A model generated the notes under the pieces. The model had not been told where the DNA came from. It searched no databases and saw only the letters and a program-made list of their open reading frames with translations. From a virus, in IMG/VR virus record IMGVR_UViG_3300042891_000711, positions 1 to 64,000 of that record: a stretch of 64,000 nucleotides of DNA; one strand, 5' to 3'. This document shows positions 7,231 to 43,295 of this stretch, piece after piece. Within the stretch, counting starts at the first letter, position 1; each line of letters begins with the position of its first letter. A program made the position numbers and the translations under genes.

Positions 7231-7294
7231 TAGTATAGTAATAAGGGTGGAGGAAACTCCACCCATCCTCAACAAAAATACAAAGAGAGAAGAT

Positions 7295-7600
7295 ATGGCC
7301 AAGGCAATTGCAAAAGTTAAAACAACACCAAACTTATCAGTCAAAGAACCCAGTATGTACAAGGTCATTTATATCAATGATAATGTAACAACTATGGAAT
7401 TTGTTATTGAAAGTCTGCGTGTGGTATTTGATATTGCCGTTGACACTGCAATTGAAATTACACAAACTATTCACGAAGAAGGCAGTGCAACAGTTATTGT
7501 GTTACCTTATGAAATGGCAGAACAAAAAGGTGTTGAAGCAACACAACTTGCTAGAGCAAATGGCTTTCCACTTGTAATTAAACTTGAACCTGCTGCATGA
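7295..7600 (+). CDS. clpS: ClpS, N-end rule adaptor of ClpAP
   Basis: A 101-aa protein. The core matches ClpS: YKVIYINDNVTTMEFVIESL, then TIHEEGSATVIVL, then ARANGFPLVIKLE. The residues that bind N-degrons are present: Asn-Asp in IND, the Met in TMEF and the His in IHEEG. ClpS hands proteins with destabilising N-termini to ClpA-ClpP. The start at 7295 was chosen because AAAGAGAGAAG precedes it and it fits family length. ClpP is encoded separately at 38813. Phage ClpS may direct degradation of chosen host proteins. Confidence 0.92.
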   Translation: MAKAIAKVKTTPNLSVKEPSMYKVIYINDNVTTMEFVIESLRVVFDIAVDTAIEITQTIHEEGSATVIVLPYEMAEQKGVEATQLARANGFPLVIKLEPAA

Positions 7601-8214
7601 GAAACTTGTTAGTAATAGGTGATAGTTTTTGTGATCACAGATATATAGATACAGACTGGCCTGTGTATTTGTCGAACCTATTAAATTTAAATTTAATTGG
7701 TGCCGGTTTACCTGGCGAATCTTGGTGGTTCATAAGAGAACATTTTATGAAAATTTATACATCGGATGAATTTAAAAAAACTGATCTTATTGTATATTGT
7801 CACACTGACCCAAATAGGATTATTGGTACTGATGGTACCTTACGCATAGGAGATGACGATCCGGATGTTATTAAACTTTATTTGACAAAATTACAAAATC
7901 TTAAATTCAATGATTGGTGTTGTCGACAATGGTTCAAAGAATTAAATAATCTATTAGCGGACAAAAAAGTAATACATGTTCAAAATTTTCCTTTAACTTC
8001 TAAATATTTTAATAAGTTAAACGGAGTTAAAGTTGATAGAACGACATTGTACGATTTAAGTTTAAGAGAACTTACCGATTGTAACAAATTCATATATGAT
8101 ACTAGAAACAACCATTTCAGCACAGAAAATAATTTAAAAATTGCAAACATGTTATTTGAAATAGTTAATACAACCACTAATTGGCAGAATGAAACTCGGG
8201 AATTACAATTTTGA
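7597..8214 (+). CDS. SGNH/GDSL hydrolase-like protein
   Basis: A 205-aa protein. It opens with LLVIGDSFCDH, the block I serine motif (GDS) of SGNH hydrolases; GAGLPGESWW is near the expected block II Gly; and NNHFSTENNLKIANML near the C-terminus holds the catalytic-type His (block V). The block III Asn is probably in YCHTDPNR. Such enzymes cleave acyl or acetyl esters, in phages often on glycans. The ATG overlaps the clpS stop. It could instead be an inactive relative, as the Asp of block V is not obvious. Confidence 0.65.
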   Translation: MRNLLVIGDSFCDHRYIDTDWPVYLSNLLNLNLIGAGLPGESWWFIREHFMKIYTSDEFKKTDLIVYCHTDPNRIIGTDGTLRIGDDDPDVIKLYLTKLQNLKFNDWCCRQWFKELNNLLADKKVIHVQNFPLTSKYFNKLNGVKVDRTTLYDLSLRELTDCNKFIYDTRNNHFSTENNLKIANMLFEIVNTTTNWQNETRELQF

Positions 8215-8869: not shown

Positions 8870-9622
8870 TTACTTAGTTCTAGGTCCTAATCCGGGTATC
8901 CAACCTAAACTAATATACTCGTTAAATAACTCAGGTGATATGTATTTTCTATCACATGTTTCCTTGTTATGTACCCAGCGTTTGCCAATAAGTGATTGTT
9001 TAATCTTTTCCGCTTTTTCGTCTGAGCAAGGTGGGCGAACATTCCACCCAGGAGTTCCTGCTCGTAGTTTGCGAGTAACAGATATTTTAGATACTTCTTC
9101 ATCTGTTCGAGCAATACCTTTATTCCAACTTGATTGCCCTTGCCTTGATAATGATAACTTTTCTCTCCATTCGAGAGTAAAATCTTCTGATGTGCGTCCT
9201 GTTTTTCTACCGTAGTTAGGATTGAGCGGACCTGTTAAAGTTTTAAGATATTCTGCTCGTTGTGATTTAAGTTTTTCGTATATAGTAGATGTCATTTTGT
9301 AGTCGTGTTTGCTGTTCTTACCTTTACAGCACATACGCCAAGCCGCGTGAAACATTTTAATTTGTGCCTGGCCTGTAGTCATTTTTGGTAGTAATAAATG
9401 ACAAACAAAGTGTTCTCGTGCTGTTAGGCTTACTAAGTTATCTTTAGAATTATTGCCACCTAAACTTTTTGGTATAATATGATGGCGTTCTATATATGTT
9501 TCTGGTGATAAAGTTCTTGACTTTGCGTTAGATACTATGTTAAAATAATACTTAGAATATTTATTTTGTAAATACATTTGCTGTAACTCCTTTTCAGTTA
9601 TAGAGTAGTTGGATATCCCCAT
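8870..9622 (-). CDS. HNH homing endonuclease with NUMOD-type region
   Basis: A 250-aa minus-strand protein. The HNH core is ERHHIIPKSLGGNNSKDNLV followed by SLTAREHFVCHLLL. C-terminal Gly/Arg/Lys-rich segments (GRKTGRTSEDF, LSRQGQSSWNKG, KQSLIGKRW) resemble NUMOD3 DNA-binding repeats of phage homing endonucleases. The start at 9622 avoids overlap with the exonuclease gene; longer forms would run into it. A GATAAATA motif (9640-9647, minus) precedes it. It is a free-standing mobile gene in T4-like genomes and no intron is seen. Confidence 0.85.
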   Translation of the reverse strand: MGISNYSITEKELQQMYLQNKYSKYYFNIVSNAKSRTLSPETYIERHHIIPKSLGGNNSKDNLVSLTAREHFVCHLLLPKMTTGQAQIKMFHAAWRMCCKGKNSKHDYKMTSTIYEKLKSQRAEYLKTLTGPLNPNYGRKTGRTSEDFTLEWREKLSLSRQGQSSWNKGIARTDEEVSKISVTRKLRAGTPGWNVRPPCSDEKAEKIKQSLIGKRWVHNKETCDRKYISPELFNEYISLGWIPGLGPRTK

Positions 9623-9639
9623 ATCGCGAACTACATTAT

Positions 9640-9647
9640 TATTTATC
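9640..9647 (-). promoter_or_regulatory. Late-promoter-like motif GATAAATA (minus)
   Basis: One mismatch from TATAAATA on the minus strand, 17 bases before the HNH gene start. It lies in the divergent gap to the plus-strand exonuclease. Confidence 0.4.
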
Positions 9648-9662
9648 TCATAAAGGAATAAA

Positions 9663-10202
9663 ATGAGTTTTTCGGTTATGCTTGATTTAGAAACACTAAG
9701 TACCCGCCCAGAAGCAACTATCTTAACATTTGGCGCTATTAAGTTTAGCCCATACAATCAAGAGCCTATGACAGATGGTATCTACTATCGTATTAATGTT
9801 GATGAACAAATTGAGTTAGGTAGCCATGTAGACGAAAACACTGTAGCATGGTGGGGCACCCAAGCAGAAGATGTGCGTGAAGAAGCACTTAGTCCTGAGA
9901 ACCGTATTAGCCTAGAAGAGTTCACACAAAACTTAAATCGTTTCCTAGTAGGTGCTGACAATATTTGGGCACAAGGTCCGGTGTTTGATATTGTTATTTT
10001 AGAAAACTTATACAGACGATTGGGCAAACCTTGTCCATGGCAGTTCTGGCAGATCCGTGATAGTCGTACTTTGTTAAGTAGTCTAGGTGACCCACGTGAA
10101 AAGAACAAAGCAGGCCTGCATAATGCATTAGAAGATGCAGTCAGTCAAGCGCAGGCAGTCCAGTACGTGTTTAAACAAGCCGGAATTACGGAGAAACGAT
10201 AG
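9663..10202 (+). CDS. dexA: DexA-like 3'-5' exonuclease (DEDD family)
   Basis: A 179-aa nuclease. ExoI motif: VMLDLETLSTRPEATILTFG (Asp-x-Glu). ExoII: GPVFDIVILENLYRR. ExoIII: HNALEDAVSQAQAVQYV, giving the His and the last Asp of the DEDDh type. WWGTQAEDVREEAL matches the family of phage T4 DexA and similar 3'-5' exonucleases. T4 DexA degrades DNA 3' to 5' and is dispensable. The next gene overlaps its stop. Confidence 0.85.
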   Translation: MSFSVMLDLETLSTRPEATILTFGAIKFSPYNQEPMTDGIYYRINVDEQIELGSHVDENTVAWWGTQAEDVREEALSPENRISLEEFTQNLNRFLVGADNIWAQGPVFDIVILENLYRRLGKPCPWQFWQIRDSRTLLSSLGDPREKNKAGLHNALEDAVSQAQAVQYVFKQAGITEKR

Positions 10203-10579: not shown

Positions 10580-11077
10580 ATGAACAAACGTATGGTCTGC
10601 AATCTTTTATTGGTCGTCACGTTGACTGCTAGCGTTAATATTGCCAAGGCTGGCGAAATGGTGCACACATTCAGTAGCCCGGCATTCAGCGGACAGGGCT
10701 TTGGAATACATGCCCTTACGATTAAACAATTAGAAGATCAGGCCAAGGACAAGCGTGAATCTGCGGCAGAAGCTATACAGGCCAAAGCAGAATCTGCTGC
10801 ATTGAATACTCCGCAGGCTAGATTCATTGCTAACTTAGAATCAAGAATTTATAGTCAACTAGCAAAACAGCTAACTGACAGCATGTTTGGTGAAGGTGCT
10901 ACCTGTACTACAGCAGGAGTGGTATGCGGTAATATACCAAACCTGGGCGGTAACAGTATCGAGTGGAGTCTAGGCGCAGGTAGCGATAGTGGATTAATTA
11001 TTATTACTATACAGGATCTGGCTAATGTTGATAATGTAACAACAATGAAAGTGCCAGCAGGGACCTTTTACTTCTAA
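10580..11077 (+). CDS. csgF: Curli secretion accessory protein CsgF
   Basis: A 165-aa exported protein with signal peptide ending near NIAKA. The mature N-terminus GEMVHTFSSPAFSG follows the CsgF pattern G-x-M-x-x-x-F-x-x-P-x-F-x-G, which in Escherichia coli inserts into the CsgG barrel and narrows the pore. The C-terminal part (ARFIANLESRIYSQLAKQL, and SGLIIITIQDL) also fits CsgF. It is longer than the 138-aa bacterial protein through a charged Ala-rich linker at about 50-75 and a Cys-pair loop at about 110-118. It overlaps csgG by the TAATG arrangement. Confidence 0.88.
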   Translation: MNKRMVCNLLLVVTLTASVNIAKAGEMVHTFSSPAFSGQGFGIHALTIKQLEDQAKDKRESAAEAIQAKAESAALNTPQARFIANLESRIYSQLAKQLTDSMFGEGATCTTAGVVCGNIPNLGGNSIEWSLGAGSDSGLIIITIQDLANVDNVTTMKVPAGTFYF

Positions 11078-11943
11078 TGAAAAAGTTATTAATTCTTTTA
11101 TTAGCAGTAACATTAGGCGGATGTGCCACGGGTAGTGTGATTCGTGAAAAAGTCACAGGTGAACAATTTGATAAACCTGAAGTAGTACGTGAAACATACT
11201 TTACTAAACCGGAGAATAGAGTATTGCCTCCAGCAGGCGGTCCTGTTCCTATAGCAGTGTATAGTTTCTTAGATAAAACAGGACAACGTAAGAATATACC
11301 TAACGTGGCTAGTTTTAGTACAGCAGTATCGCAGGGTGCAGAAGCATACTTAATCGGCGCCTTACAAGATGTAGGCGACCAACGTTGGTTTACTGTGTTA
11401 GAACGTGTAGGGTTAGACAACTTGATTAAAGAACGTCAGATGATTCGTCAGATGCGTGAACAATATCAAGGTAGAGAAGCCAAGTCATTACCACCAATGA
11501 TGTTTGCTGGTGTTATTGTTGAGGGAAGTGTAACAGGCTACGATAGTAACCTGCTTACAGGTGGTAGTGGTATGCGTATTTTGGGTATAGGAGCTCAAAC
11601 ACAATACCAAAGTGACACGGTTACAGTTACTCTAAGAACAGTAAGCGTTAATACAGGTGAAGTATTAACAACTGTAACAGTTACTAAAACAGTATTAAGC
11701 TACATGGATAAATTTGGTATATTAAAGTTTGTTGAAGAAGGCACAAAAGCCATTGAAGCTGAATCTGGTATGAGTATTAACGAAAGTGTCAATAAGGCAA
11801 CTAATCTAGCAGTCAAAGCAGCTGTGGTTGCTACTATTCGAGAAGGAGTTCGAAAAGGGCATTGGGCATTTAAGGAAGAGCCTAAGCCTGTAGTACAAAC
11901 AGATGGTATAACATATCCGCTGTTAGAAACAAAAAAACAATAA
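11077..11943 (+). CDS. csgG: Curli secretion channel lipoprotein CsgG
   Basis: A 288-aa lipoprotein with lipobox LGGC at residues 13-16. The body follows CsgG: PVPIAVYSFLDKTGQRK, then WFTVLERVGLDNLIKERQMI, IVEGSVTGYDSN, DTVTVTLRTVSVNTGEVL, and the C-terminal helix region. CsgG forms a nonameric outer-membrane channel that exports curli subunits. The barrel strand segments around 130-150 and 180-200 are intact and the length matches bacterial CsgG (277 aa), so it is likely functional. It lies between csgF and curlin-repeat genes; csgE is not visible. Confidence 0.95.
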   Translation: MKKLLILLLAVTLGGCATGSVIREKVTGEQFDKPEVVRETYFTKPENRVLPPAGGPVPIAVYSFLDKTGQRKNIPNVASFSTAVSQGAEAYLIGALQDVGDQRWFTVLERVGLDNLIKERQMIRQMREQYQGREAKSLPPMMFAGVIVEGSVTGYDSNLLTGGSGMRILGIGAQTQYQSDTVTVTLRTVSVNTGEVLTTVTVTKTVLSYMDKFGILKFVEEGTKAIEAESGMSINESVNKATNLAVKAAVVATIREGVRKGHWAFKEEPKPVVQTDGITYPLLETKKQ

Positions 11944-11973
11944 TAGGATTTTAAAAATCCAAGGAGCATGACA

Positions 11974-12759
11974 ATGAAATATAATTTAAAAGCAACGGTA
12001 AGTATGATGTTTTTAGCTTTGTCAACGTCGGTAATAGCCGCAGGTCCAACAGGCCCTAACCGTGTTTACATTGAACAATTGGGTAACACCAATAATGTTA
12101 CAATTGAACAGGTTGGCGGAACTAACGATGTTGGTGGTACTGCTGGTAGTGTAGCAGTTGACGCAACAGGTCTAAGTACACTAACAGTAACAGCACCAAG
12201 TACTAGTAACTATGCTACAATCAACGGTAGCAATAATGGTGTTACTATAACGCAAACTGGTGATGATAACCAAGCGCAGTATAATATTAAAGGTGGTACT
12301 AACACCTATACAAGTACTGTAACTGGTAGCGGCAATCAAAATAAACTTACTATTGGTAACACCAACACTAACGGTATGCGTAATACTGTTACTGAGTCAG
12401 TTACAGGTAGTACTAATATGTTGATTACTAATATTGTTGGCAGTGATAATGCGTTATCAACTACTATTGGCGGCGATAATAACCAATTAACCATTGGTGT
12501 AACTACTAGCAATGCCGATATTACTAACACTATTAGTGGTAGCAACAATATATTTAATATACAACAAATTGATGCTGCAGGCAGTGCTGGTCATAGTTTA
12601 ATTACATCAACTACAGGTGACTACAACAGTATTACCACACAGCAACAAGGTACAAATGATACTACATTGAACATTAGTACAACTGGTGATCATAATACGA
12701 TTACAGTACGTTCAAGCAGCGGTGCTATAGTAAGCCCAGTATCAGCAATAGTGAGATAG
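11974..12759 (+). CDS. Curlin-repeat protein (CsgA/CsgB-like)
   Basis: A 261-aa secreted protein. Signal peptide ends near SVIAA. The mature part holds degenerate curlin repeats of about 20-25 residues with Gln-x-Gly-x-x-Asn spacing, for example VYIEQLGNTNNVTIEQVGG, GVTITQTGDDNQAQYN, NIFNIQQID and ITTQQQG. Ser/Thr/Asn/Gly-rich composition is typical of CsgA-type amyloid subunits, though it is larger and less regular than the 151-aa CsgA. The start at 11974 was chosen because AAGGAG is 7 bases before it. It follows csgG by 30 bases and is the likely CsgG substrate. Confidence 0.82.
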   Translation: MKYNLKATVSMMFLALSTSVIAAGPTGPNRVYIEQLGNTNNVTIEQVGGTNDVGGTAGSVAVDATGLSTLTVTAPSTSNYATINGSNNGVTITQTGDDNQAQYNIKGGTNTYTSTVTGSGNQNKLTIGNTNTNGMRNTVTESVTGSTNMLITNIVGSDNALSTTIGGDNNQLTIGVTTSNADITNTISGSNNIFNIQQIDAAGSAGHSLITSTTGDYNSITTQQQGTNDTTLNISTTGDHNTITVRSSSGAIVSPVSAIVR

Positions 12760-12762
12760 TCA

Positions 12763-13854
12763 ATGAAACTATTGCTTGCCGTGGTATGCTTATTAGCATA
12801 TACCAACAGTTGGGCGGGCATTGGAACTGTAAGCGATACTAAAGGTACCGCTTGTTCAATAGAGCGTGCTAAACAGACCCTGCCTGGCAACAAAGGTGCC
12901 TCCATAGAAAGTATGGATACCTATGTTACAGGCGGCTGTGTTAGCAACATTACATTTAAAGATGACACCAAAGTAAAAATAACAGAAAACAGTCGACTAA
13001 TGATAGACGACTTTGTCTTCGATCCTAAAAAATCTGACGCAGGCAAACTAGCACTTAAAGTAGGCATGGGCACAGTGCGCTATGCCAGCGGTCAAATTGC
13101 TAAGAATAATCCACAACGAGTAGACATTAAAACTCCCACAGCCAGTATTGCTGTTCGTGGTACAGACTTTAACATGACTGTAGACGAAGCCGGTCAGAGT
13201 TTGGTAATTCTTGTGCCTAGTTGTAAAGACGGTGAAAAGATCAAAGAATATGAACTAGAAGAAAACTTATGTAAAGTGGGTAAGATTGAAGTTAGTACAC
13301 TGGCTGGTATAGTTACGTTAGATAAAGCATTTGAAGGTACCTATGTTACATCGGCTAACATGATGCCTAGTCCTCCAGCTATTATTAACACAATTGAAAG
13401 TAAGATTGGTAACAGTCTTATTATCACCCGCCCACCTGAAATTGTCAAGGCTAGTAAAGAAGCAGGTAAAAGCAAACGTGATCTAGAACAAGAAGAATTA
13501 GAAGCTATCCAAGCAAGTCAACTTGCTCAACGTATAGCCAAAGAAGGCGAAGCTAAAGCTACGGTAATGCCTTACAGTTTTGACAGTGGTAAATCAGGAT
13601 GTAATCCATCAATTAACGTCTGCGTCAAGTGGGAAAATCCTGATGGCGACAGTCTACAGGCCAAAGGTCGAGGAATAGCGTTTCGTCAAAGTGAAGATCA
13701 CTATGCGGAAGTTAAAACACAGGGCTACGAAAGTAATACGTCGATTGAAATAACACATGATGATAATATTGCTTCAGCTACAATTGGCTCAGGCGATCCA
13801 GGTGGTAATGTAGTACGTATCAAACAGAATTCTGGAGTGTTAAGACGACAATGA
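12763..13854 (+). CDS. FecR-domain periplasmic protein
   Basis: A 363-aa exported protein. Signal peptide ends near NSWA. Residues about 20-135 form a FecR-like beta domain: GGCVSNITFKDDTKVKITEN, LKVGMGTVRYASGQI, and the signature VDIKTPTASIAVRGTDF. A second segment (STLAGIVTLDKAFEGTYV) may be another sheet; a charged coiled-coil part (about 225-265) follows. It is not the anti-sigma type FecR because no N-terminal cytoplasmic domain or inner-membrane helix is present. In the curli locus it may scaffold or sense exported subunits. In some bacteria FecR-domain proteins are encoded beside CHASE2 cyclases, and one is encoded at 21801. Confidence 0.8.
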   Translation: MKLLLAVVCLLAYTNSWAGIGTVSDTKGTACSIERAKQTLPGNKGASIESMDTYVTGGCVSNITFKDDTKVKITENSRLMIDDFVFDPKKSDAGKLALKVGMGTVRYASGQIAKNNPQRVDIKTPTASIAVRGTDFNMTVDEAGQSLVILVPSCKDGEKIKEYELEENLCKVGKIEVSTLAGIVTLDKAFEGTYVTSANMMPSPPAIINTIESKIGNSLIITRPPEIVKASKEAGKSKRDLEQEELEAIQASQLAQRIAKEGEAKATVMPYSFDSGKSGCNPSINVCVKWENPDGDSLQAKGRGIAFRQSEDHYAEVKTQGYESNTSIEITHDDNIASATIGSGDPGGNVVRIKQNSGVLRRQ

Positions 13855-14987
13855 AACGACTCCTTTTAATCTTATTGTTAGTTTGTTCCGATACCCGGGC
13901 AGCAGGAATTACGGGTCTTAATTATCAAAATTATGCCGCAGGCGGTGCGCAACCCTCGTATACTCAAGATGCCAACGGTAACATCACCAATCGCACACTA
14001 TTAAGTACTGGAACTGTAAACACAGTAGGATTAACCACTAGTAGTGGGGCAGGCTTGCCTACTCGCAGTGATGGCTTTATTGTTCGTTTCTATGGTTACA
14101 TTAATATCGCAACAGCAGGCACCTACTACTTTGGCGGACAAGCCGACGACGGTATACGTATTAAAGTTGATGGTGTTTCTGTAGTCGACAGTTGGATTGA
14201 AAGTGGCGGAGCATTTAGACAAAGTAGTTCTATTACATTAGCCGCAGGTGTTGTTGCTGTGGAAGTGATGTTTTACGAGAACGGTGGCGGACAAATGGTT
14301 AACTTTCAGTGGTACACTCCGGGAGCAACAGCATGGGCTATGGTACCCACAGCGTCAACAGCCACCGATAATACCTATTGGGCGCCTGCAGCTCCTGCAC
14401 TATGCTGTGGGGGTAGTTCGTCAAGTTTTAATGCTAGTCCATCTAATGTAACAAAAGTACAGTCATACGCCACAAGGAATACCAATGACAGTCAAGTCTA
14501 CATAGACCAAATTGGTAATGACAATGAGATTACAGTTGATCAAACGGGTACTAAAAATAACTACACAGAATACAATGGTGGTGGTAGTTTCAATACCGTT
14601 AATATCTCACAAACTGGTAATAGTTCAACAACAGCAAACTATGTAGAACTAAATGTCAACGGTGATAGTAATACAGTAAATCTAACACAGCAGAGTACAG
14701 GCGGTGCTAAAGGTATCTACGCTACAGTTAACGATGACAATAATAATGTCACAGTCTTACAAAAAGACAGTGGTAATGCTTACTTAAACTTAAACTTGAG
14801 TGGTGGTAATAAGACAGTGGACATAACTCAACAGGGCAGTGCTAATCACATGGCCGACATTACATTAAGCGGTGCTGGTGCTAGAAGTTTAAACTTAAAT
14901 CAGCAAGGTGCAGTACAACAATTTTATAGTATCAATAGTAGTTGTGCTAGTAGTTGTCAAGCTATAACAGTAATACAGGGGCAATAA
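13851..14987 (+). CDS. PA14-domain and curlin-repeat fusion protein
   Basis: A 378-aa secreted protein with signal peptide ending at TRAA. Residues about 50-170 form a PA14 domain (GFIVRFYGYINIATAGTYYF, then DDGIRIKVDG and MFYENGGGQMVNFQW) with the expected Asp-Asp glycan-binding loop. A CCGG linker follows, then at about 205-378 a curlin-repeat block: VYIDQIGNDNEITVDQTG, NTVNISQTG, NTVNLTQQS, NVTVLQKDS, KTVDITQQG. It ends with a paired-Cys stretch. The design suggests an amyloid-forming fibre part carrying a sugar-binding head. Its ATG overlaps the previous stop. Confidence 0.82.
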   Translation: MKRLLLILLLVCSDTRAAGITGLNYQNYAAGGAQPSYTQDANGNITNRTLLSTGTVNTVGLTTSSGAGLPTRSDGFIVRFYGYINIATAGTYYFGGQADDGIRIKVDGVSVVDSWIESGGAFRQSSSITLAAGVVAVEVMFYENGGGQMVNFQWYTPGATAWAMVPTASTATDNTYWAPAAPALCCGGSSSSFNASPSNVTKVQSYATRNTNDSQVYIDQIGNDNEITVDQTGTKNNYTEYNGGGSFNTVNISQTGNSSTTANYVELNVNGDSNTVNLTQQSTGGAKGIYATVNDDNNNVTVLQKDSGNAYLNLNLSGGNKTVDITQQGSANHMADITLSGAGARSLNLNQQGAVQQFYSINSSCASSCQAITVIQGQ

Positions 14988-15056: not shown

Positions 15057-17105
15057 ATGAAGAAAATAACATTAGCATTGATGCTAGCGGGTGTATTTGG
15101 TTTGAATCAAGCAATGGCCGCAAATGCAATCATCGAAAATGAATACGTAAGAGCAGGTGTAAACGAAAGTACAGGTACACTAGGATCTGGTGGTGGCACA
15201 CGTCCGGGTCTACAGTATGACAATACAGGTACAAGTACTTGGCCCGGCAACAGTAGCCAAGGCGACTATCTAACACCGGGTAGCCCATTTGAAGGTTACA
15301 CAGTTAGATTAGAAGAAGCTGATGGTACACTAATCCGTTCATATACAAATAACAATACCGGTGGTGCACAAATTTCCGGCGGTGCTTGGGTAACTACTCC
15401 AACTGCTGACAGTGCTGTATGGGCTGCAACTACCAGTGACTTTGGTATTCAAAATACCTACAGCTTACCGGCTGGTCAAAAGTATATTGAAATTGACACA
15501 CAGATTACAGCAAGTATAGCTATACCTAAACTATGGTTTGGCCGCTTTATTGATCCTGATGCTATGCCTATGCCAGGTGATACGAGTGCTACAGACAATG
15601 CACGTGGCTACGGTGCAATTCCAACTACAAACGTAGTGTTTAGCGAAGCAACAGTAAGCCGTTACGCATTAGGTTTATACTCATCAGCAACTAACGTGGG
15701 TACAGGTATTAGCCCTATGTGGACAACTAATCCTAAGGACTACTACACAAACGTTGGCGGATACAATGTAGGTAACGGAGATCATACAATTGGTTTAGGT
15801 TTCTTAATGAGTGGCGTAAGTGCAGGTGACATTGTACACTTTAACTATGCTTATATCTTTGGACCAAGCGCATTTGGTGCGGCTACTTCGGCAGTTAGTG
15901 GTGGCGCTGGTGGTGGTACTCCTGGCACTGTTCCTGGAGGCGGCACGCTAGTTGACGTAGGTTCAGCAACAGATGCAGCGTCGGGTACACCAACACCTCC
16001 TCCTGCTCCAACAGTAACAGGCACAAGCACATCAACTATTACTATTAGCGATGTTACTGCGATAAGTGCAACATTACCAGTTATTACAGCGAGCCTAGCA
16101 CACCATGATGCTACAGAAGCCGCAGGTGTACAAACAATTGCACGTGAAACAACTACTAACGTAACAACTCCAATGGAACGTACATTAGTAACTAAAGTAC
16201 GTACAACCAGCACATGGAGTGATAGTACAACCACATTCGTTGATGCGGCTCCTGTGACTGATGTTACAGTATCGAACAGCGTAGCAACTTCAGTAGCTAA
16301 TGCTAGCTTCGGTGGTCGTGTTGATCAATACACACAATTAGCAGAACTAAACACAGGTATCAATCGTGGCTTAAACTCACAACTATTCCGTAAAGATATG
16401 GTTGATGGAAAGGGTTACAGAATGTACATGGGTGTTGCACATTTAGACAGCGGCGCAGGTAACGGCTATGATGCTAAGTCAGATAAATTTAACATTGGCG
16501 TTGAAAAAGATGTTAAAGCCTACTGGACGTTAGGTGCTCAATATACCAATGTTAATACATCATTAACAGGTGTTGACAGTGCCACTAAACAAAACAAAAA
16601 TCACTTGGGTGCTTATAGTATCTTAACTAAAAATAATTGGATCTTAAAAACAGATTTGGGTCTAGCTGATAACAGTCTTAAATCAAATCGCAACGTAGCG
16701 GGTTTATTCTACAATGCCAGCAGTACTGATGGAAACGATTGGTGGTTAAGTAACCGTGTTTATACTCCTAGCTTAAACGGCTTCCGCCCATACGCAGGTT
16801 ATACATATGGTAAAGATAAACGTGATGCTTACACTGAAACAGGTAGTATACAAAGTGCTAGAACTGTGGCCAGTGTAACTGACACCAATGACTACAGCGA
16901 AATTGGTGTGCGCTATGATAAGACCATTAATAAACTAATATTGTCGGGCGAAGCAGGTGTTTCTAGTGATAGCTACAAAGATATTAAAGGTGAAGTAAGT
17001 TATCTAGTTAATGCACGTAGCAGAATTAGCATAACAGCAAGTAGACAGGAACATAAGGACTTGTCAACTAACCAAATTGGTTTGCAAGGTAAGATAGATT
17101 TTTAA
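15057..17105 (+). CDS. Outer-membrane beta-barrel protein with N-terminal passenger
   Basis: A 682-aa exported protein. Signal peptide ends near AMAA. Residues about 25-280 form a soluble beta-rich region, 280-330 a Gly/Pro/Thr-rich linker, 330-420 a Thr/Ser/Val-rich segment, and about 430-682 alternating amphipathic strands typical of an outer-membrane barrel, ending in KIDF with the terminal Phe needed for BAM recognition. The order passenger, linker, barrel resembles autotransporters, though I see no classical passenger helix. AAGGAG is at good distance. It closes the curli locus before a strong terminator. Confidence 0.75.
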   Translation: MKKITLALMLAGVFGLNQAMAANAIIENEYVRAGVNESTGTLGSGGGTRPGLQYDNTGTSTWPGNSSQGDYLTPGSPFEGYTVRLEEADGTLIRSYTNNNTGGAQISGGAWVTTPTADSAVWAATTSDFGIQNTYSLPAGQKYIEIDTQITASIAIPKLWFGRFIDPDAMPMPGDTSATDNARGYGAIPTTNVVFSEATVSRYALGLYSSATNVGTGISPMWTTNPKDYYTNVGGYNVGNGDHTIGLGFLMSGVSAGDIVHFNYAYIFGPSAFGAATSAVSGGAGGGTPGTVPGGGTLVDVGSATDAASGTPTPPPAPTVTGTSTSTITISDVTAISATLPVITASLAHHDATEAAGVQTIARETTTNVTTPMERTLVTKVRTTSTWSDSTTTFVDAAPVTDVTVSNSVATSVANASFGGRVDQYTQLAELNTGINRGLNSQLFRKDMVDGKGYRMYMGVAHLDSGAGNGYDAKSDKFNIGVEKDVKAYWTLGAQYTNVNTSLTGVDSATKQNKNHLGAYSILTKNNWILKTDLGLADNSLKSNRNVAGLFYNASSTDGNDWWLSNRVYTPSLNGFRPYAGYTYGKDKRDAYTETGSIQSARTVASVTDTNDYSEIGVRYDKTINKLILSGEAGVSSDSYKDIKGEVSYLVNARSRISITASRQEHKDLSTNQIGLQGKIDF

Positions 17106-17131
17106 TAAATTGCCCCGAAAGGGGCTTTTTA
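17100..17131 (+). repeat. Copy 1 of a 32-bp duplicated gene end and terminator
   Basis: Identical to 19488-19519, covering the last coding bases, TAATAAATTG and the GCCCC-GAAA-GGGGC terminator. Both copies follow genes for outer-membrane barrel proteins. The duplication may reflect joint acquisition or recombination. Confidence 0.85.
17112..17130 (+). terminator. Rho-independent terminator
   Basis: GCCCC-GAAA-GGGGC stem-loop followed by TTTTT. It ends the curli-type operon. The same 32-base block occurs after the porin gene at 19488-19519. Confidence 0.9.
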
Positions 17132-17136
17132 ATAAC

Positions 17137-17144
17137 TATAAATA
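17137..17144 (+). promoter_or_regulatory. T4-type late promoter motif TATAAATA
   Basis: Exact motif just after a terminator and 5 bases before the ATG of a 32-codon membrane peptide. Confidence 0.5.
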
Positions 17145-17149
17145 CTATT

Positions 17150-17248
17150 ATGTATACATGGCGCGAACGTATTATTTTCTTTGAAATTGTCCTTTTCTTC
17201 ACCCTTGTGTTTTCTATCCCCTACATAGAACAACTAATCCAACTGTAA
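17150..17248 (+). CDS. Possible 32-aa membrane peptide
   Basis: Short reading frame starting MYTWRERIIFFEIV with one hydrophobic helix (IIFFEIVLFFTLVFSI) and a positive N-terminus. It lies between a late promoter motif and the Pho-box region. No ribosome binding site is visible, so the start, and even expression, are uncertain. Confidence 0.4.
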   Translation: MYTWRERIIFFEIVLFFTLVFSIPYIEQLIQL

Positions 17249-17298
17249 CAAAAATTTAATCTGTTTGTAACGCTACTGTAATCTTTGTGTGTTTAAAT
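17243..17298 (+). promoter_or_regulatory. Pho-box array and promoter of the phosphate operon
   Basis: Two 7-base half-sites TTGTAAC (17265-17271) and CTGTAAT (17276-17282) separated by the 4-base GCTA match the architecture of the PhoB box (CTGTNAT-N4-CTGTNAT). A further CTGTAAC at 17243-17249 is in 11-base phase, 22 bases upstream. A -10-like TTAAAT lies at 17293-17298, about 10 bases after the box, the spacing used by PhoB-activated promoters. Host PhoB would switch on the two genes below under phosphate limitation. The transcript would start near the ATG at 17305, meaning a leaderless mRNA, in line with the lack of a ribosome site. Confidence 0.7.
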
Positions 17299-17304
17299 AT
17301 AATT

Positions 17305-18054
17305 ATGACCACAAGATATAAGACCATTTGTATATCCGACTTCCATCTTGGCACTAAAGATGCCAAGGCCGATCTATTAAACAATTTCCTTAAACATCAC
17401 ACCTGCGAAAATTTATTTCTTGTAGGTGACATAATCGACGGCTGGAAAATACAGCAGAACAAATGGCGTTGGCATCAAAGCCATACTAATGTAATACGTA
17501 GGATATTAGGCTATAGTAAACGAGGATGCAATGTAACCTATATAACTGGCAACCATGACGAATTCCTTCGTCCGTTAGTTAGTCATGGTTTTAATCTAGG
17601 TAATATTCGTATGGCCAATCAGGCAGAATACCGTAGTATCGATGGGGAACTATTTCTTATCACACACGGCGACTTGTTTGATGGTGTTACTAGACTAGCA
17701 CCGTGGTTAGGATTTTTAGGTGACAAGATGTATGATGTTGCTTTGTGGTTTAATAACTACTTTAACTTTGCCCGTAGAAAATTAGGGTTTGGTTATTGGA
17801 GTCTGAGTAAGTTTTTAAAAGCTCGTGTTAAAAAAGCAATGGGGTTTGTGTTTAAGTTTGAGCTTACTATGTTACAGTACGCACAAAAACGTGGATACGA
17901 TGGTGTTATCTGCGGACACATACACACACCCGAAATTAAACACATCAACGGCATGATTTATATGAATGACGGCGATTGGGTTGAAAGTTGTAGTGCCCTG
18001 GTAGAAGATTATGAAGGACGCTGGGATATTATATATTGGAATGAAATCAAATAG
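17305..18054 (+). CDS. Metallophosphoesterase, LpxH-like family
   Basis: A 249-aa calcineurin-like phosphoesterase with all metal-binding blocks: ISDFHLG, GDIIDGW, TGNHDEF, THGDLFD and GHIHTPE. The order and length match UDP-2,3-diacylglucosamine diphosphatase (LpxH) type proteins in which a helical cap (about 125-190) covers the active site. The exact substrate cannot be read from sequence: it could act on lipid A precursors or another phosphate ester. Control by a Pho box and coupling to a phosphate porin favours phosphate scavenging. The ATG at 17305 was chosen over an upstream GTG because it sits at the expected transcription start. Confidence 0.85.
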   Translation: MTTRYKTICISDFHLGTKDAKADLLNNFLKHHTCENLFLVGDIIDGWKIQQNKWRWHQSHTNVIRRILGYSKRGCNVTYITGNHDEFLRPLVSHGFNLGNIRMANQAEYRSIDGELFLITHGDLFDGVTRLAPWLGFLGDKMYDVALWFNNYFNFARRKLGFGYWSLSKFLKARVKKAMGFVFKFELTMLQYAQKRGYDGVICGHIHTPEIKHINGMIYMNDGDWVESCSALVEDYEGRWDIIYWNEIK

Positions 18055-18065
18055 GAGAAAGATGA

Positions 18066-19493
18066 ATGACGATACAACAGGTTAAATCAATAATGTATTA
18101 TGTAGTAATAGCATTTGCGCTATCAATGGCAGGGTTAAAGCAAGCGCATGCCGACAGCACCACTGACATTGTTAACGCACTAGTTATGAAAGGTGTACTT
18201 ACAGAAGAAGAAGGCGCATTATTAAATAAAGGACACAGTGGAGAAACAGGCGCTGCTAAAAAAGAAAAAGACACTACTGTTCATGCGGCTAGTAAAATGA
18301 GCATTCGTGGCTATTTACAAATGCGTAACACTACTATGCTCAGTGGTGATGAAGGAGTTAACCTTTGGTCAGATCGATCTGTAGGTGATAAAAACTCTCT
18401 TGCTGATCAAGACAAAAATTTCTTAATTCGTCGAGCACGTGTGATTATTTCTGGTTCTGCCGGTGACCGTTTAGATTACTACATTCAACCTGACTTTGCT
18501 AGTACAGCAGGTACTACAGGTAACGTAGCGCAATTACGCGATGCTTATGGTGATGTCAACTTGACCAAAGACAAAGTCCACCGCGTTCGTGTTGGACAAA
18601 GTAAAGTACCATATGGCTTTGAAAACTTACAGTCTTCACAAAATCGTCTAGCACTTGATCGTGCTGACGCATTTAATAGTGCGGTACGTGATGAACGTGA
18701 CTTGGGTGCGTTTTACTACTACACACCGGATAATGTGCAAAAACTCTTTAAAGAAATTCAAGATGGCGGACTAAAACACTCAGGCAACTACGGTATGTTT
18801 GGTTTAGGTATATATAACGGCCAAGGTGCTAACCAACAAGATCGTAACGACAACTACCATGTAGTGGCACGTGCTACTTACCCATGGAAAACTGAAAGCG
18901 GTCAAATTTACGAAGCTGGTGTACAGGGTTATACAGGCAAGTATGTAAGAACAGGCAGTGCTTATAGAAAAAATATGGGCAACAATGTCTACGCAACTAA
19001 AACACCAACATTAGAACCAGGCAATACAACTGGATTTAAAGATGAGCGTGTGGGTGTGAGTTTTATGATGTACCCTATGCCTTTCGGTTTGCAAGGTGAG
19101 TGGAACTGGGGTAAAACTCCTGGCTTAGATACTGCTGCTAGTACTGACGGCATTATTAAAGAAACTAATTTAAACGGTGGCTACATTCAAACTATGTATA
19201 AAATTGATAACTTCAAGGTGTTAGATACCAATGGTACATTAATTCCATTTGTTAGATGGCAATACTTTGATGGTGCGTCAAAAGCAGAAACTAACTCACC
19301 AATGAACAAAGTTAACGATTGGGAGTTGGGTGCTGAATGGCAAATTGCTCCAGAAGTTGAACTTGTGGCTTACTATCATATGATGAACCGTAGCAATTTA
19401 GTAACAGGCGCATCAGCTACTACACTAGTAAAACAAGACTATGCTAACTTTAAAGCAGATGCTTTACGGGTTCAGCTACAGTATAACTTTTAA
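18066..19493 (+). CDS. Phosphate-selective porin O/P family protein
   Basis: A 475-aa outer-membrane porin. Signal peptide ends near AHA. An N-terminal region (TTDIVNALVMKGVLTEEEGA) like the helical lead-in of OprO/OprP is followed by a barrel that opens with MSIRGYLQMRNT and continues with LIRRARVIISGSAGDRLDYY and QLRDAYGDVNL, typical of Porin_O_P. It ends QLQYNF with a terminal Phe. OprP-like porins carry phosphate or polyphosphate in through basic residues in the pore. AGGAG precedes the start. It follows the phosphoesterase under one Pho-box promoter. Confidence 0.9.
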   Translation: MTIQQVKSIMYYVVIAFALSMAGLKQAHADSTTDIVNALVMKGVLTEEEGALLNKGHSGETGAAKKEKDTTVHAASKMSIRGYLQMRNTTMLSGDEGVNLWSDRSVGDKNSLADQDKNFLIRRARVIISGSAGDRLDYYIQPDFASTAGTTGNVAQLRDAYGDVNLTKDKVHRVRVGQSKVPYGFENLQSSQNRLALDRADAFNSAVRDERDLGAFYYYTPDNVQKLFKEIQDGGLKHSGNYGMFGLGIYNGQGANQQDRNDNYHVVARATYPWKTESGQIYEAGVQGYTGKYVRTGSAYRKNMGNNVYATKTPTLEPGNTTGFKDERVGVSFMMYPMPFGLQGEWNWGKTPGLDTAASTDGIIKETNLNGGYIQTMYKIDNFKVLDTNGTLIPFVRWQYFDGASKAETNSPMNKVNDWELGAEWQIAPEVELVAYYHMMNRSNLVTGASATTLVKQDYANFKADALRVQLQYNF

Positions 19494-20783: not shown

Positions 20784-21350
20784 ATGAGTTTAATCGGAAA
20801 ACAAGTAGAAGAATTTAAAGCACAAGCATACCAACAGGGTAAGTTTGTAGAAGTATCAGAGCAAGACTTAAAAGGTAAATGGAGTGTGTTATTCTTTTAT
20901 CCAGCAGACTTTACATTTGTCTGCCCAACAGAATTAGCAGACCTACAAGACGTATACGCAAGTGACTTCAAAGGCTTAGGCGTTGAAGTATACAGTGTAA
21001 GCACAGACACACACTTTGTACACAAAGCATGGGCAGATGCTACAGACACAATCCGTAACATCACCTACACAATGATTGGTGATGCTAACCATCAGTTGGC
21101 TCGTCAATTTGGTGTGCTAATTGAAAGCGAAGGCTTAGCCGACCGCGGTACGTTTGTTATTGATCCAGATGGTGTAGTACAGATCATTGAGATCAATCCA
21201 GGTGGTGTAGGTCGCGATGCTAAAGAGTTGCTACGTAAAGTTAAAGCAGCAAAATACACACGTGAACATCCAGGTGAAGTATGCCCGGCTAAATGGCAAG
21301 AAGGAAGTGCTACACTAGCACCAAGTTTGGATTTAGTAGGTAAACTATAA
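20784..21350 (+). CDS. ahpC: AhpC-type 2-Cys peroxiredoxin
   Basis: A 188-aa peroxiredoxin of the AhpC/Prx1 group. The peroxidatic cysteine is in [16 protein letters not shown] and the resolving cysteine in [27 protein letters not shown] and the C-terminal tail match full-length AhpC (187 aa in Escherichia coli). It reduces hydrogen peroxide and organic peroxides, using AhpF or thioredoxin from the host. CAAGGAG precedes the ATG. It is flanked by terminators and lies in convergence with cytochrome c. Confidence 0.95.
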
Positions 21351-21381: not shown

Positions 21382-21681
21382 TTACTGCGTCAACACCCAT
21401 TTAACGAGCGTTTTAATATCCTCGTCTTTGATCTGTGGACTCATTGGCGGCATTGGAATAGGACCCCATACTCCACTACCACCTTTCTTAACTTTGGCTA
21501 TAAGTTTAGCCTCTGCGTCAGCTTGACCTTTATATTTGGCAGCAACATCTCGATACGCCGGACCTAATATTTTTTTATCAACTGCGTGGCAAGCTAAACA
21601 GCCACTTTTCTGTGCCAATGCCTGATTAGCATTTGCTGTGATACAACTACCTAATAATAATACTGCTAAAATAGTTTTCAT
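21382..21681 (-). CDS. Periplasmic c-type cytochrome (c551/c552 type)
   Basis: A 99-aa protein with signal peptide ending near ANA and one haem site SGCLACHAVDK. The axial methionine is probably in GPIPMPPM. KKILGPAYRDVAAKYKGQ and IKTLVKWVLTQ match small class I cytochromes of the c551/c8 group that shuttle electrons between quinol- or dehydrogenase-side enzymes and oxidases. It needs host cytochrome c maturation. AAAGGATC precedes the start. A phage-encoded cytochrome c is uncommon; its closeness to pqqA suggests respiratory support. Confidence 0.9.
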   Translation of the reverse strand: MKTILAVLLLGSCITANANQALAQKSGCLACHAVDKKILGPAYRDVAAKYKGQADAEAKLIAKVKKGGSGVWGPIPMPPMSPQIKDEDIKTLVKWVLTQ

Positions 21682-21765: not shown

Positions 21766-21794
21766 TTGACAAAAAACCCAAAAGAGTAAATAAT
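21766..21794 (+). promoter_or_regulatory. Sigma70-type promoter of the CHASE2 cyclase gene
   Basis: TTGACA at 21766-21771, 17-bp spacer, AATAAT at 21789-21794. The ATG lies 6 bases after the -10, at the expected transcription start, so the mRNA would be leaderless. Confidence 0.6.
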
Positions 21795-21800: not shown

Positions 21801-23825
21801 ATGATGAAAAATAAACTTAAAAAACTCCTAGTCAGTCCGTGGACTGCATTAATTACATTAGCTGTTATTGTGGTAGTAATCCTACAAGGACCTACGTTTG
21901 TAGAGTCAGTTAGACTTAGATACTTTGACACCCTCATTGGCGGCAAGGCTCCTACAGAAAATAATATCTATACTGTAAACATAGATGAAGCTACATTAGA
22001 CAAGTATGGACAATGGCCATTCAAACGTGACAAGTATGCCAACCTAATTGATGACCTGTACAAACATGGCGCCGGCCTAGTTGTTTGGACTGTTATGATG
22101 CCAGAAGCAGATCGTCAAGGTGGCGATGCGGCCTTAGCATTAGAGTTAGAAGATCATCCAGTTATCTTAACTAACATGCCAAGTCAAACAACTAAAAACA
22201 TTCCACGTAAACCAGGCAGTGCTGTTATTGGTGATGAATACAGCGACACAATTATCACCTATCCAGGTATTATTGCTAACATTCCGGAACTAGAACGTAA
22301 TGCCGCAGGTGTTGGTATTGCTAATACGTTTCCAGAAGTGGATGGTGTTAATCGTCGACTACCATTGTTTGTTGGTTATGACAATAACGTATATCCAAGT
22401 ATTCCATTAGAAGTATTACGTGTTATATCACAGGACTCAACTTTCCAAGTTAAGTTAAATGAATTTGGTGTAGAGAAAATGCGCATACCAAGTTTCCGTC
22501 CTATTAGCACAGACAGTTTGGGTCGTATCTGGGTAGACTGGAGTCAAAAGTCGACACAGGTATCAGCAGTTAATTTACCTAAAGACTTTGGTGGTGCTGT
22601 GGTTATTGTAGGCCTAAGTGCCGCAGGTTTAGCTAATCCTGTGCCAACTAGTATCGGTAGTGTATGGCCACAAGACATGCAGGCCGCTGTTATTGGCACA
22701 CTTGCTAACAACGTAAACATTGAACGTCCATTCTGGGCAGACAACGCCGAACTGTTAGCTCTTATTGTTATCTCACTTATTATTTTAATCTTAAGCCGTT
22801 GGGTATATGTTGGCTTAGGAGTTGGTGTTGTATTGCTTGCGGCAATTACACCTGTAACAATGTATGCGTTTGCACACTATAACTTCTTGTTTGATGCTAT
22901 TGTGCCCACAGCAGGTGGTGTACTGGTTATGCTACACGCTTATGGTGTTAAATTCATCAGCGAGTTCTTACAGAAACAACAGATCAAGAAACAATTTGGT
23001 AGTTATGTCAACCCTACTATTGTTGAACGTTTACAAAAGAATCCAGAGCTGATTAAACTAGGCGGCGAACGTAAAGAACTTTCAATTGTTATGACTGACC
23101 TACGTGGCTTTACTACATTAGGTGAATCGTTTGGTGATGATGTAGAAGGACTTACACAGATCATGAACGACTACATGACCGCATTGAGTATTCCTGTGCT
23201 TAAGAATGATGGTACTTTAATTAAGTTTATTGGTGATGCTAGTTTACACGTACATGGTGCTCCATTAGACGATGTTGACCACGCTAAGACTGCGGTTAAG
23301 ACAGCACTTGAAATGATCAAAGCCATTGAAGACTTTAACGTAGAACTTACAGCTAGTGGTCGACCGCCGGTTGGTATGGGTGCAGGTGTTAACACAGGTG
23401 AAACCTTAATTGGTAATATTGGTGCTAAGAGCAAGTTTGGCTATGATGTCTTAGGTGACAGTGTAAGTACTGCGGCACGGTTAGAAGGACAGACTAAATC
23501 ATATGGTGTATTACTAATCATTGGTCCTAAGACTGCTGAATACTGTAAAGATGCGTTCCCTGTAGTATGGTTAGACAACATTGCTGTTAAAGGCAAAACA
23601 ATTGGTCTAGACATTTACACAGTTGGCCGTACTAATCTTTATATGCATGAAGAATATCGTAAAGAATATACTCGAGGTTCATGGAGTAAGGCTATTGTAT
23701 GGGCTAAAAAGTTAGTTAACAATGATGATGTTGACATTAAACATTACTATGAACTAATGATTGAACGCATGGAACAGGGTGTTCCTGCAAACTGGGACGG
23801 AACATATCATGCTACAAGTAAATAA
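21801..23825 (+). CDS. CHASE2-domain class III adenylate cyclase
   Basis: A 674-aa membrane enzyme. One N-terminal helix (about 13-30) leads to an extracytoplasmic CHASE2 domain (about 35-310: LRYFDTLIGG, WPFKRDKYANLIDDL, AAGVGIANTFPEVDGVNRR). Three hydrophobic segments at about 315-385 follow, then a class III cyclase domain (about 415-600). Metal Asp in IVMTDLRGFTT and in LIKFIGDASLHVHG are present, as are the Lys and Asp that select adenine (IKFIGD, GYDVLGD). The position normally Asn in V-N-x-A-A-R is Ser here (DSVSTAARLEG); Arg is kept. It probably makes cAMP in response to a periplasmic cue, perhaps at reduced rate. Confidence 0.9.
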   Translation: MMKNKLKKLLVSPWTALITLAVIVVVILQGPTFVESVRLRYFDTLIGGKAPTENNIYTVNIDEATLDKYGQWPFKRDKYANLIDDLYKHGAGLVVWTVMMPEADRQGGDAALALELEDHPVILTNMPSQTTKNIPRKPGSAVIGDEYSDTIITYPGIIANIPELERNAAGVGIANTFPEVDGVNRRLPLFVGYDNNVYPSIPLEVLRVISQDSTFQVKLNEFGVEKMRIPSFRPISTDSLGRIWVDWSQKSTQVSAVNLPKDFGGAVVIVGLSAAGLANPVPTSIGSVWPQDMQAAVIGTLANNVNIERPFWADNAELLALIVISLIILILSRWVYVGLGVGVVLLAAITPVTMYAFAHYNFLFDAIVPTAGGVLVMLHAYGVKFISEFLQKQQIKKQFGSYVNPTIVERLQKNPELIKLGGERKELSIVMTDLRGFTTLGESFGDDVEGLTQIMNDYMTALSIPVLKNDGTLIKFIGDASLHVHGAPLDDVDHAKTAVKTALEMIKAIEDFNVELTASGRPPVGMGAGVNTGETLIGNIGAKSKFGYDVLGDSVSTAARLEGQTKSYGVLLIIGPKTAEYCKDAFPVVWLDNIAVKGKTIGLDIYTVGRTNLYMHEEYRKEYTRGSWSKAIVWAKKLVNNDDVDIKHYYELMIERMEQGVPANWDGTYHATSK

Positions 23826-24986: not shown

Positions 24987-25767
24987 AATTTTATTTATCG
25001 GCATGTTGCTTTGTATAGGTACAGCAACTGCAAAGCCTATTACTGCCAAAAGTTTCTTAGTATCTGACACTAGTGGCGAAGTTATATTAGAAAAGAATGC
25101 CGACCGAGTACAACCTATTGCTAGTATTACTAAACTAATGACTGTAATGGTGGTTTTAGATGCTAATCAAAACTTAGATGAGATGATTACTCTAGATCGT
25201 AAATTAGTTGGTAAGTATCACACTCGATTGCCTCGTAGTGTTAAACAACTGACTCGTGGTGAACTAATTGACCTTGCTATTGTTAAGAGTGATAACCTTG
25301 CCGCGTATACCCTAGGCGCTAACTATCCAGGTGGGCTAGCTCGTTGTATAGCTGAAATGAATCACATTGCATTTGTGCTAGGTATGTCCAGTACAACATT
25401 TGCCGACCCAACAGGGTTAGATGCAAACAATGTTAGTAATGCCCGTGACCTAGGCAAATTAGTTCTAGCCGCAAACGAATATACAGAGATTACCGAAGCA
25501 AGTGGTAAACCTCAAGTAAGTATAAAAGTTAAACGCCGCTGGTGGCAGTTCGGCAACACTAATCCACTGGTTAGAAATACCAATGATGTACGAGTAAGTA
25601 AGACTGGTTATATAAATGAAAGTGGTGGCTGTGTGGTTATGCTACTTGATACTGAACTAGGACAACGTGTGATTGTGTTACTTGGCAGTAAGAATACTCG
25701 TACTAGATTCCCAGAAGCACAAAAAATCGCTGTAACAGTAAGCCACAGCGATATTGATGTTGATTAG
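24967..25767 (+). CDS. D-alanyl-D-alanine carboxypeptidase (S11 family)
   Basis: A 266-aa exported enzyme with signal peptide ending near TATA. Active-site motifs of serine peptidase S11 are present: ASITKLMT (SxxK), KSDNLAAYTL (SxN) and VSKTGYIN (KTG). It is closest to the short PbpG/DacD type without the C-terminal amphipathic anchor (DacA is about 400 aa). It trims the terminal D-Ala of peptidoglycan stem peptides or cuts cross-links. A phage copy could weaken or remodel the wall before lysis. A minus-strand terminator lies inside its 3' end. Confidence 0.88.
   Translation: MLLNLNKILFIGMLLCIGTATAKPITAKSFLVSDTSGEVILEKNADRVQPIASITKLMTVMVVLDANQNLDEMITLDRKLVGKYHTRLPRSVKQLTRGELIDLAIVKSDNLAAYTLGANYPGGLARCIAEMNHIAFVLGMSSTTFADPTGLDANNVSNARDLGKLVLAANEYTEITEASGKPQVSIKVKRRWWQFGNTNPLVRNTNDVRVSKTGYINESGGCVVMLLDTELGQRVIVLLGSKNTRTRFPEAQKIAVTVSHSDIDVD
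25721..25752 (-). terminator. Minus-strand terminator of the lipase operon
   Basis: On the minus strand ATCGCTGT and ACAGCGAT form a perfect 8-bp stem with an 11-base loop, followed by TTTTTT. It lies about 12 bases past the stop of the gene at 25764 and is embedded in the 3' end of the plus-strand carboxypeptidase gene. Confidence 0.75.
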
Positions 25768-26096
25768 TCACTACCGCCACTAGCGGCGTTGTCATCTTCC
25801 GATTTCTTCTTGTGTTTGCTTAGATCGTTAATTTCTTTTTCAGCTTCGACACGTTCATACTCAATTGTTTTACCACGTAGGTGTAGGACAGTGTTTACTT
25901 TTTGATTCAAACGTATAAGATCATTGTCTAACATACGTATGCGATCTATCAAGGCAATAAGCACAGTATTTGCGTCTGAAATGACTGGTTTTACCTCTTT
26001 TGTGGCCCATTCCCATACGTATTTGATAATGAATCCCATACCCACTGCCATAACAATGGGAAAGCCATATTTGTTTACTAAATCTACTACATCCAT
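25764..26096 (-). CDS. Small holin-like membrane protein with coiled coil, 110 aa
   Basis: One N-terminal hydrophobic segment (KYGFPIVMAVGMGFIIKYVW) then a helical, charged part (IRMLDNDLIRLNQKVNTVLH) and a Lys/Glu tail. It is a paralogue of the protein at 27581: both have GFP-x-x-MA-x-x-x-G then a helix with D-x-R-x-x-x-x-x-x-D. Proteins of this shape in phages resemble small holin-like or BhlA-like proteins, but no lysis function is proven. It is the last gene of a minus-strand operon. Confidence 0.65.
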   Translation of the reverse strand: MDVVDLVNKYGFPIVMAVGMGFIIKYVWEWATKEVKPVISDANTVLIALIDRIRMLDNDLIRLNQKVNTVLHLRGKTIEYERVEAEKEINDLSKHKKKSEDDNAASGGSD

Positions 26097-27580: not shown

Positions 27581-27862
27581 CTAGTCGCGTCGAGCGTCAT
27601 TTTTACCGTCTGCACGTGCAATACGGTCTGTGTCTGGTTTTAAACCTAAAGCATTACTGACGATAGTATCAATACGGATAACATCATGGTTCATAGTTTT
27701 AACGCGATTGTCCAATGCAGTGATGATGCCAGCCATACCTTTAATAGAACCAAGTACGCCAGCTAATAGTAGTTTGATAGTAAGATAAACAAAGTACCCG
27801 CCGGCTAATGCCATTGCAACGGGGAAGCCCAGATCGCCAATTAGTTTGAAGATGTCGCCCAT
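27581..27862 (-). CDS. Small holin-like membrane protein, 93 aa
   Basis: First gene of the minus-strand operon. One long hydrophobic stretch (GFPVAMALAGGYFVYLTIKL) followed by an amphipathic helix (ITALDNRVKTMNHDVIRID) and a charged C-terminus. Paralogous to 25764-26096. A strong AAGGAG site precedes the ATG. Expression from the minus-strand TATAAATA at 27898 would be late. Holin-like assignment is from shape and context only. Confidence 0.65.
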   Translation of the reverse strand: MGDIFKLIGDLGFPVAMALAGGYFVYLTIKLLLAGVLGSIKGMAGIITALDNRVKTMNHDVIRIDTIVSNALGLKPDTDRIARADGKNDARRD

Positions 27863-42953: not shown

Positions 42954-42955
42954 AG

Positions 42956-43021: not shown

Positions 43022-43084
43022 AAAGCATATTGTCACTAAGGTCCCGTAAGGATTATGTCTTTGGCAAGATAGTATGCTTCTGAT
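43022..43084 (+). other. Intervening segment of the permuted tmRNA
   Basis: The stretch between the encoded CCA and the 5' end of the coding piece. AAGCATA (43023-43029) pairs with TATGCTT (43073-43079), closing a loop that brings the two mature ends together, as expected for a segment cut out by host RNases such as RNase P on the 5' side. Confidence 0.75.
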
Positions 43085-43290: not shown

Positions 43291-43295
43291 ATAGT

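Follow-up and report, generated by a model that had tools for sequence, protein, structure and literature searches.

The window analysed here, 64,000 nucleotides long, is part of a 218,902-base (218.9-kb) virus record and encodes a sensor cyclase together with an upstream group of curli and FecR genes (Table 1). In the cyclase, a single N-terminal membrane helix (about residues 9–29, by model and hydropathy) precedes the CHASE2 domain and further membrane helices follow it, which is the flanked layout of a CHASE2 receptor. An AlphaFold2 model of the 674-residue protein had a mean pLDDT of 87.5. Its cyclase part matched CyaB of P. aeruginosa (3r5g) with a Z score of 22.9 (2.1 Å over 188 residues) and CyaC with a Z score of 22; the PF00211 and 3r5g matches place this domain in the class III cyclase fold. 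The sequence-only reading, which had proposed a CHASE2 sensor, membrane helices and a class III cyclase, is thus confirmed by Pfam, hydropathy and the model.

Table 1. Curli/FecR genes, cyclase domains and active-site residues in the window (positions are those of the 64,000-nucleotide stretch).
Feature	Position	Strand	Evidence
csgF, curli export accessory	10580..11077	+	PF10614, E 4.9e-11
csgG, outer-membrane curli pore, lipoprotein signal	11077..11943	+	PF03783, E 1.4e-49; NCBIfam CsgG below cut-off
Curlin-repeat protein, CsgA/B-like	11968..12759	+	PF07012
FecR-domain protein with export signal	12763..13854	+	PF04773, E 1.2e-10
Second curlin-repeat protein, PA14 domain	13851..14987	+	PF07691, PF07012
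CHASE2 sensor/class III nucleotide cyclase	21801..23825	+	ATG start, 674 aa; Pfam; PHROG 35576 full length, E 3e-209
CHASE2 sensor domain, residues 21–329, predicted periplasmic	21861..22787	+	PF05226, E 1.4e-36; hydropathy; model
Three membrane helices, about residues 313–331, 335–360, 367–400	22737..23000	+	AlphaFold2 model; hydropathy peaks 319–353, 362–380
Linker, residues 391–420, placed sensor/core recombination site	22971..23060	+	DNA identity steps
Class III cyclase catalytic domain, residues 425–599, Ser-type core	23073..23597	+	PF00211, E 9.6e-18; 3r5g match
Metal Asp433	23097..23099	+	Alignment
Ile474 (Asp in all Asn-type cores) and Lys475	23220..23225	+	Alignment
Metal Asp479	23235..23237	+	Alignment
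His483-Val484-His485, His-x-His invariant in Ser-type cores	23247..23255	+	78/78 Ser-type sequences; 77/77 readable scan loci
Asp549, base-contacting (Thr/Ser in Asn-type cores)	23445..23447	+	Alignment
Ser556, replacing transition-state Asn	23466..23468	+	Direct reading, alignment
Arg560, transition-state Arg	23478..23480	+	Alignment

The record contains one Guanylate_cyc domain. NCBIfam provided no family name for the cyclase, which belongs to a very large viral family; PHROG 35576 spans it end to end. At least 598 relatives were found in IMG/VR (393 in a separate search); the cultured-phage relatives were those of methylophage Melnitz (41% identity) and pelagiphage HTVC008M (37%). Relatives on genome contigs were recovered with an alignment query, a single-sequence scan having returned none. 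A sigma-70-like site (TTGACA-17-AATAAT, 11/12) at 21766-21794 ends six bases before the cyclase ATG, and a promoter there would leave the transcript nearly leaderless. Such sites were no more frequent than chance (12, against 13 in shuffled sequence), and this promoter was set aside for that reason.

Several other genes in the window resemble host or envelope functions. An AhpC-type peroxiredoxin (20784-21350) exceeded the NCBIfam equivalog cut-off and is up to 72% identical to Burkholderiales copies, a likeness that hints at, and does not prove, a betaproteobacterial host. Convergent with it on the minus strand is a small c-type cytochrome (21382-21681) with its own PHROG family and no assigned function. 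The small membrane proteins at 25764-26096 and 27581-27862 (both minus strand) belong to a single family, PHROG 18771, which has no assigned function, and have a holin-like size and layout; a class 3 lipase accompanies them near the cyclase, and similar proteins adjoin it in two loci from bacterial bins discussed below (L084 and L087). Host-like protein-quality genes were found at 4850-6766, 7208-7600, 45365-47002 and 42929-43341, the set comprising a DnaK-like protein (67–69% to annotated DnaK), ClpS, a full GroEL and a tmRNA candidate. A search for the T4-type capsid (PF07068) gave no match, and neither did its control search.

Two features go beyond the sequence-only reading: the upstream curli/FecR module (10580-14987) and the residues that covary with the active-site Ser. 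Here csgF, csgG, a curlin-repeat gene, the FecR gene and the cyclase are linked in this order, and by sequence inspection the FecR, CsgF, CsgG and curlin proteins all carry export signals. The curli genes lie 6.8–11 kb upstream of the cyclase with other genes between, and the whole is not one tight operon here. The intervening stretch at 15057-19493 is an envelope-related island whose content varies among relatives; it encodes a presumed outer-membrane protein of 682 aa with no Pfam match (15057-17105), an LpxH-like phosphoesterase (17287-18054) and an OprO/OprP-type porin (18066-19493). Melnitz and HTVC008M share this gene order, with the cyclase last. Among viral loci whose upstream sequence extends 9.5 kb or more, csgF, csgG, curlin and FecR genes were all present in 38 of 41; the block sometimes lies downstream on the opposite strand, and its distance to the cyclase varies. 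Of 76 bacterial loci, 38 have a FecR gene close to the CHASE2 cyclase, in many cases no more than 100 bases away, and curli genes are absent there. Most simply, phages would have combined a FecR/CHASE2-cyclase pair of bacterial origin with a cassette for curli export. The podovirus form of the module is described with a histidine kinase before csgF (PMC9599517); no HATPase_c domain was found in the 218.9-kb record, which may be incomplete.

Direct reading and alignment of the cyclase bore out the earlier statement that the metal Asp residues, the Lys and Asp for ATP and the late Arg are conserved and that the transition-state Asn is Ser: the V-N-x-A-A-R motif here is V-S556-T-A-A-R. Lys597 is also present, by the same evidence. 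The class III metal and Arg residues Asp433, Asp479 and Arg560 are invariant among readable viral relatives. The base-contacting residues are the adenylyl-type Lys475/Asp549, and the guanylyl Glu/Cys pair is absent. Since Lys/Asp is the textbook ATP-specifying pair of class III cyclases, ATP is the predicted substrate. A canonical bacterial CHASE2 class IIIb core carries Thr or Ser at 549 and Asn at 556; Asp549 and Ser556 stand here instead, and judged by these aligned residues the core is a variant of that class, not a canonical member. A sequencing error or misassembly as the source of Ser556 was rejected, as 105 viral loci have the same Ser.

When relatives were aligned at this site, Ser proved to be no lone lesion. 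Among 157 readable viral cores, positions 549 and 556 were Asp and Ser in 105, Thr and Asn in 51, and Ser and Asn in one (HTVC008M), with no mixtures; the viral loci are partly redundant, and such counts do not represent independent events. Sequences for the tree analysis described below were made distinct, and those for the AU test were thinned. Nine positions divide Ser-type from Asn-type cores almost completely. Near the active site the Ser-type has Ile474, Ser481, His483, His485, Asp549 and Ser556, and its Asn-type counterparts are Asp474, Ala483-x-Trp485 in nearly all, Thr/Ser549 and Asn556. Moreover, in an independent scan viral contigs were searched with nothing but a DNA pattern encoding Gly-Asp-Ala-Ser-x-His-x-His, and every locus so selected with a readable motif (77/77) carried Asp549 and Ser556. 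On this evidence the change from Asn to Ser is, by its residue pattern, not decay; it is one among several fixed changes that define a distinct core.

The two core types differ in their distribution. In loci from bacterial genomes, Asn was found in 76 of 79 and Asp with Ser in three; about 30 further alphaproteobacterial CHASE2 cyclases all had Asn, as did 30 of 30 Burkholderiales relatives. These bacterial sets total about 130, a few of the alphaproteobacterial and Burkholderiales entries repeating earlier loci. The three exceptions (L084, L085 and L087) lie on contigs of metagenome-assembled genomes (MAGs) of 9.7, 36 and 11.5 kb, and the curli/FecR module is present on them; from this block and the short contigs, we read them as phage contigs inside MAGs. 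L087, binned as Pirellulales, has two ClpP-like protease genes by eye (7539-8102 and 9300-9893) and is probably such a contig. Furthermore, the His-x-His signature was found in none of 398 Pseudomonadota genomes. The Ser-type core thus appears only in phages in this sampling. The sequence-only reading had named a common Ser in active CHASE2 cyclases as evidence against it. The outcome is split: Ser is common in the sampled phages, where it is the majority state, and absent from genuine bacterial cyclases.

These data also bear on whether the phage simply acquired a host gene to raise cAMP in general, as an auxiliary metabolic gene with no functional tie to curli. Potential sources are plentiful: CHASE2 proteins occur in 67 of 142 Alphaproteobacteria genomes and similar cyclases in 149 of 200 Burkholderiales genomes. 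However, the linkage of csgF, csgG, curlin and FecR genes to the cyclase persists on either strand and at varying distances, it recurs in cultured phages of two hosts, and hosts yielded no example of this core type. We consider simple capture very unlikely.

To compare the histories of the two domains, the Ser/Asn label was mapped on trees of each. On the cyclase-domain tree the label changes once, at a split with support 100, whereas on the CHASE2-domain tree it changes 23 times (shuffled mean, 43). Forcing one Ser-type clade on the CHASE2 tree made the log-likelihood 969 worse and was rejected (p-AU 3e-6); the two large trees were built by a quick method, and the AU test on 70 rows supports the conclusion. 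One change against 23 indicates that catalytic cassettes have been exchanged beneath the sensors; the break falls close to residue 400. Individual pairs show the same: the L012 and L024 proteins are about 90% identical in CHASE2 and 57% in the cyclase, one being Ser-type and the other (L024) Asn-type; the CHASE2 domain of L024 is 82% identical to that of the present protein. At the DNA level, identity to the window steps at about residues 391–420: for L007 it falls from about 93% to about 69%, and for L005 it rises from about 73% to about 90%. L011 has an additional identity step near residue 600. The steps at about 391–420 and near 600 show that sensor, core and tail are exchanged separately. 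Sequence comparison thus offers clear evidence that phages exchange Ser-type and Asn-type cores beneath interchangeable sensor domains.

The Ser-type core has a dN/dS of 0.04–0.11, which indicates strong purifying selection. Ma1120, a natural cyclase with a Lys-Asp-Ala-Arg set (Ala164, without the Asn), is an active adenylyl cyclase, and its A164N substitution lowered kcat/Km for ATP from 1.25 to 0.13 (x10^6 per M per s as printed), about tenfold (PMC4215837). Loss of the Asn thus need not abolish activity and putting it back may harm, which makes restored Asn unreliable as a positive control. For the mammalian adenylyl cyclase this residue was reported to be essential (Yan 1997, as cited in PMC4215837), and by that analogy the Ser-type core could be slow. 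One alternative is an impaired or inactive pseudo-cyclase that has kept a scaffolding or nucleotide-binding role, all Ser-type members lacking a transition-state residue that is normally needed. However, both metal Asp residues, Lys475 and Arg560 are invariant in Ser-type cores, the selection just described acts on them, and the natural K-D-A-R enzyme is active and becomes worse with Asn. We hold a pseudo-cyclase to be improbable, and the reduced activity suggested in the sequence-only reading is unsupported on the same three grounds: purifying selection, invariance of the other catalytic residues and the Ma1120 precedent.

A second alternative, a changed product being one suggestion of the sequence-only reading, is that the Ser-type core has another substrate or a product other than cAMP, giving the phage a signal separate from host cAMP. 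Several active-site positions have been rewritten together, including two new His residues beside the second metal Asp, and the same sensors carry both core types, which would be sensible if output chemistry were under diversifying choice. Against this, the Lys475/Asp549 pair specifies ATP, the guanylyl Glu/Cys pair is lacking, and the residues of clade D uridylate cyclases are absent; we give this reading little weight. A broader proposal, speculative and on balance unlikely, is that the Ser-type is a class III subclass invented by phages whose chemistry or regulation differs (it might make another cyclic nucleotide or be insensitive to host control) and which spread as an exchangeable cassette wiring one envelope sensor to either output. 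No report of the activity of any phage CHASE2 cyclase was found in the literature. By its residues, the phage membrane sensor probably makes cAMP.

Taking together the observed architecture, module linkage, coupled residues, restriction to phages in the sample, cassette exchange and purifying selection, we regard it as likely that this receptor cyclase is the signalling arm of the curli (type VIII secretion)/FecR module and makes cAMP via its Ser-type core. The periplasmic CHASE2 domain would most likely sense the state of the envelope or of secretion. Gene neighbourhood and predicted topology make the exported FecR-domain protein a plausible partner: with its export signal and a CHASE2 domain facing the periplasm, contact between the two would be possible. 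CHASE2 would then drive a cytoplasmic catalytic dimer that is predicted to convert ATP to cAMP. The virus record yielded no cNMP-binding domain (PF00027), so that a cAMP receptor would be the host's, and the cAMP may act on the host through such receptors. The interference with nucleotide-based defence proposed in the sequence-only reading found no support here.

Compared with known systems, the phage protein shares with the Pycsar cyclase PycC a generic class III domain (PADLOC E 1e-10); it differs in lying near curli genes, and no Pycsar effector was identified. The clade D uridylate residues of AnPycC are F60, K104 and F109 (PMC11224242), and at the corresponding offsets (-2, -2 and +3 of the metal residues Asp433/Asp479) the phage protein has Met431, Ile477 and Leu482. 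Pycsar membership was rejected on these base-recognition residues. With Ma1120 of Mycobacterium avium (PDB 4wp8; fold Z 18.9) it shares the Lys/Asp pair, the Arg and the lack of Asn, but Ma1120 has Ala164 where the phage core has Ser. Ser-type cores make it possible to test how a class III cyclase performs when it lacks the transition-state Asn. Bacterial CHASE2 class IIIb cyclases have the same domain order, linker, fold, metal residues, Lys and Arg, often with FecR adjacent; their cores have Ser/Thr549, Asn556, Asp474 and mostly Ala483-x-Trp485, whereas the phage core has Asp549, Ser556, Ile474 and His483-x-His485.

The closest known system is the pelagiphage type VIII secretion module with FecR and adenylate cyclase, described in mSystems 2022 (PMC9599517), with earlier partial accounts for pelagimyophages (PMC7029224) and the methylophage Melnitz (PMC9004378). 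The parts of these papers available to us propose aggregation, superinfection exclusion, uptake or lysis timing as roles, and contain no mention of active-site types or cassette exchange. In the literature found, curli-linked phage cyclases were previously known from gene content only. With two discrete cores, one confined to phages in our sample and both exchanged beneath sensors, it becomes directly testable whether the second-messenger output of the host is altered by phages; Melnitz, which infects an OM43 host, and HTVC008M, which infects HTCC1062, form a natural pair here, with a Ser-type and an Asn-type core respectively. The present locus agrees with the pelagiphage module in having csgF, csgG, curlin repeat, FecR, second curlin repeat and cyclase in order, the cyclase being 37–41% identical to those of HTVC008M and Melnitz. 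It differs in its 219-kb record, in the 6.8 kb of other genes before the cyclase and in that no histidine kinase was found. The module itself is known; the new part, as judged from these comparisons, would be its phage-only catalytic core variant and the exchange of cassettes.
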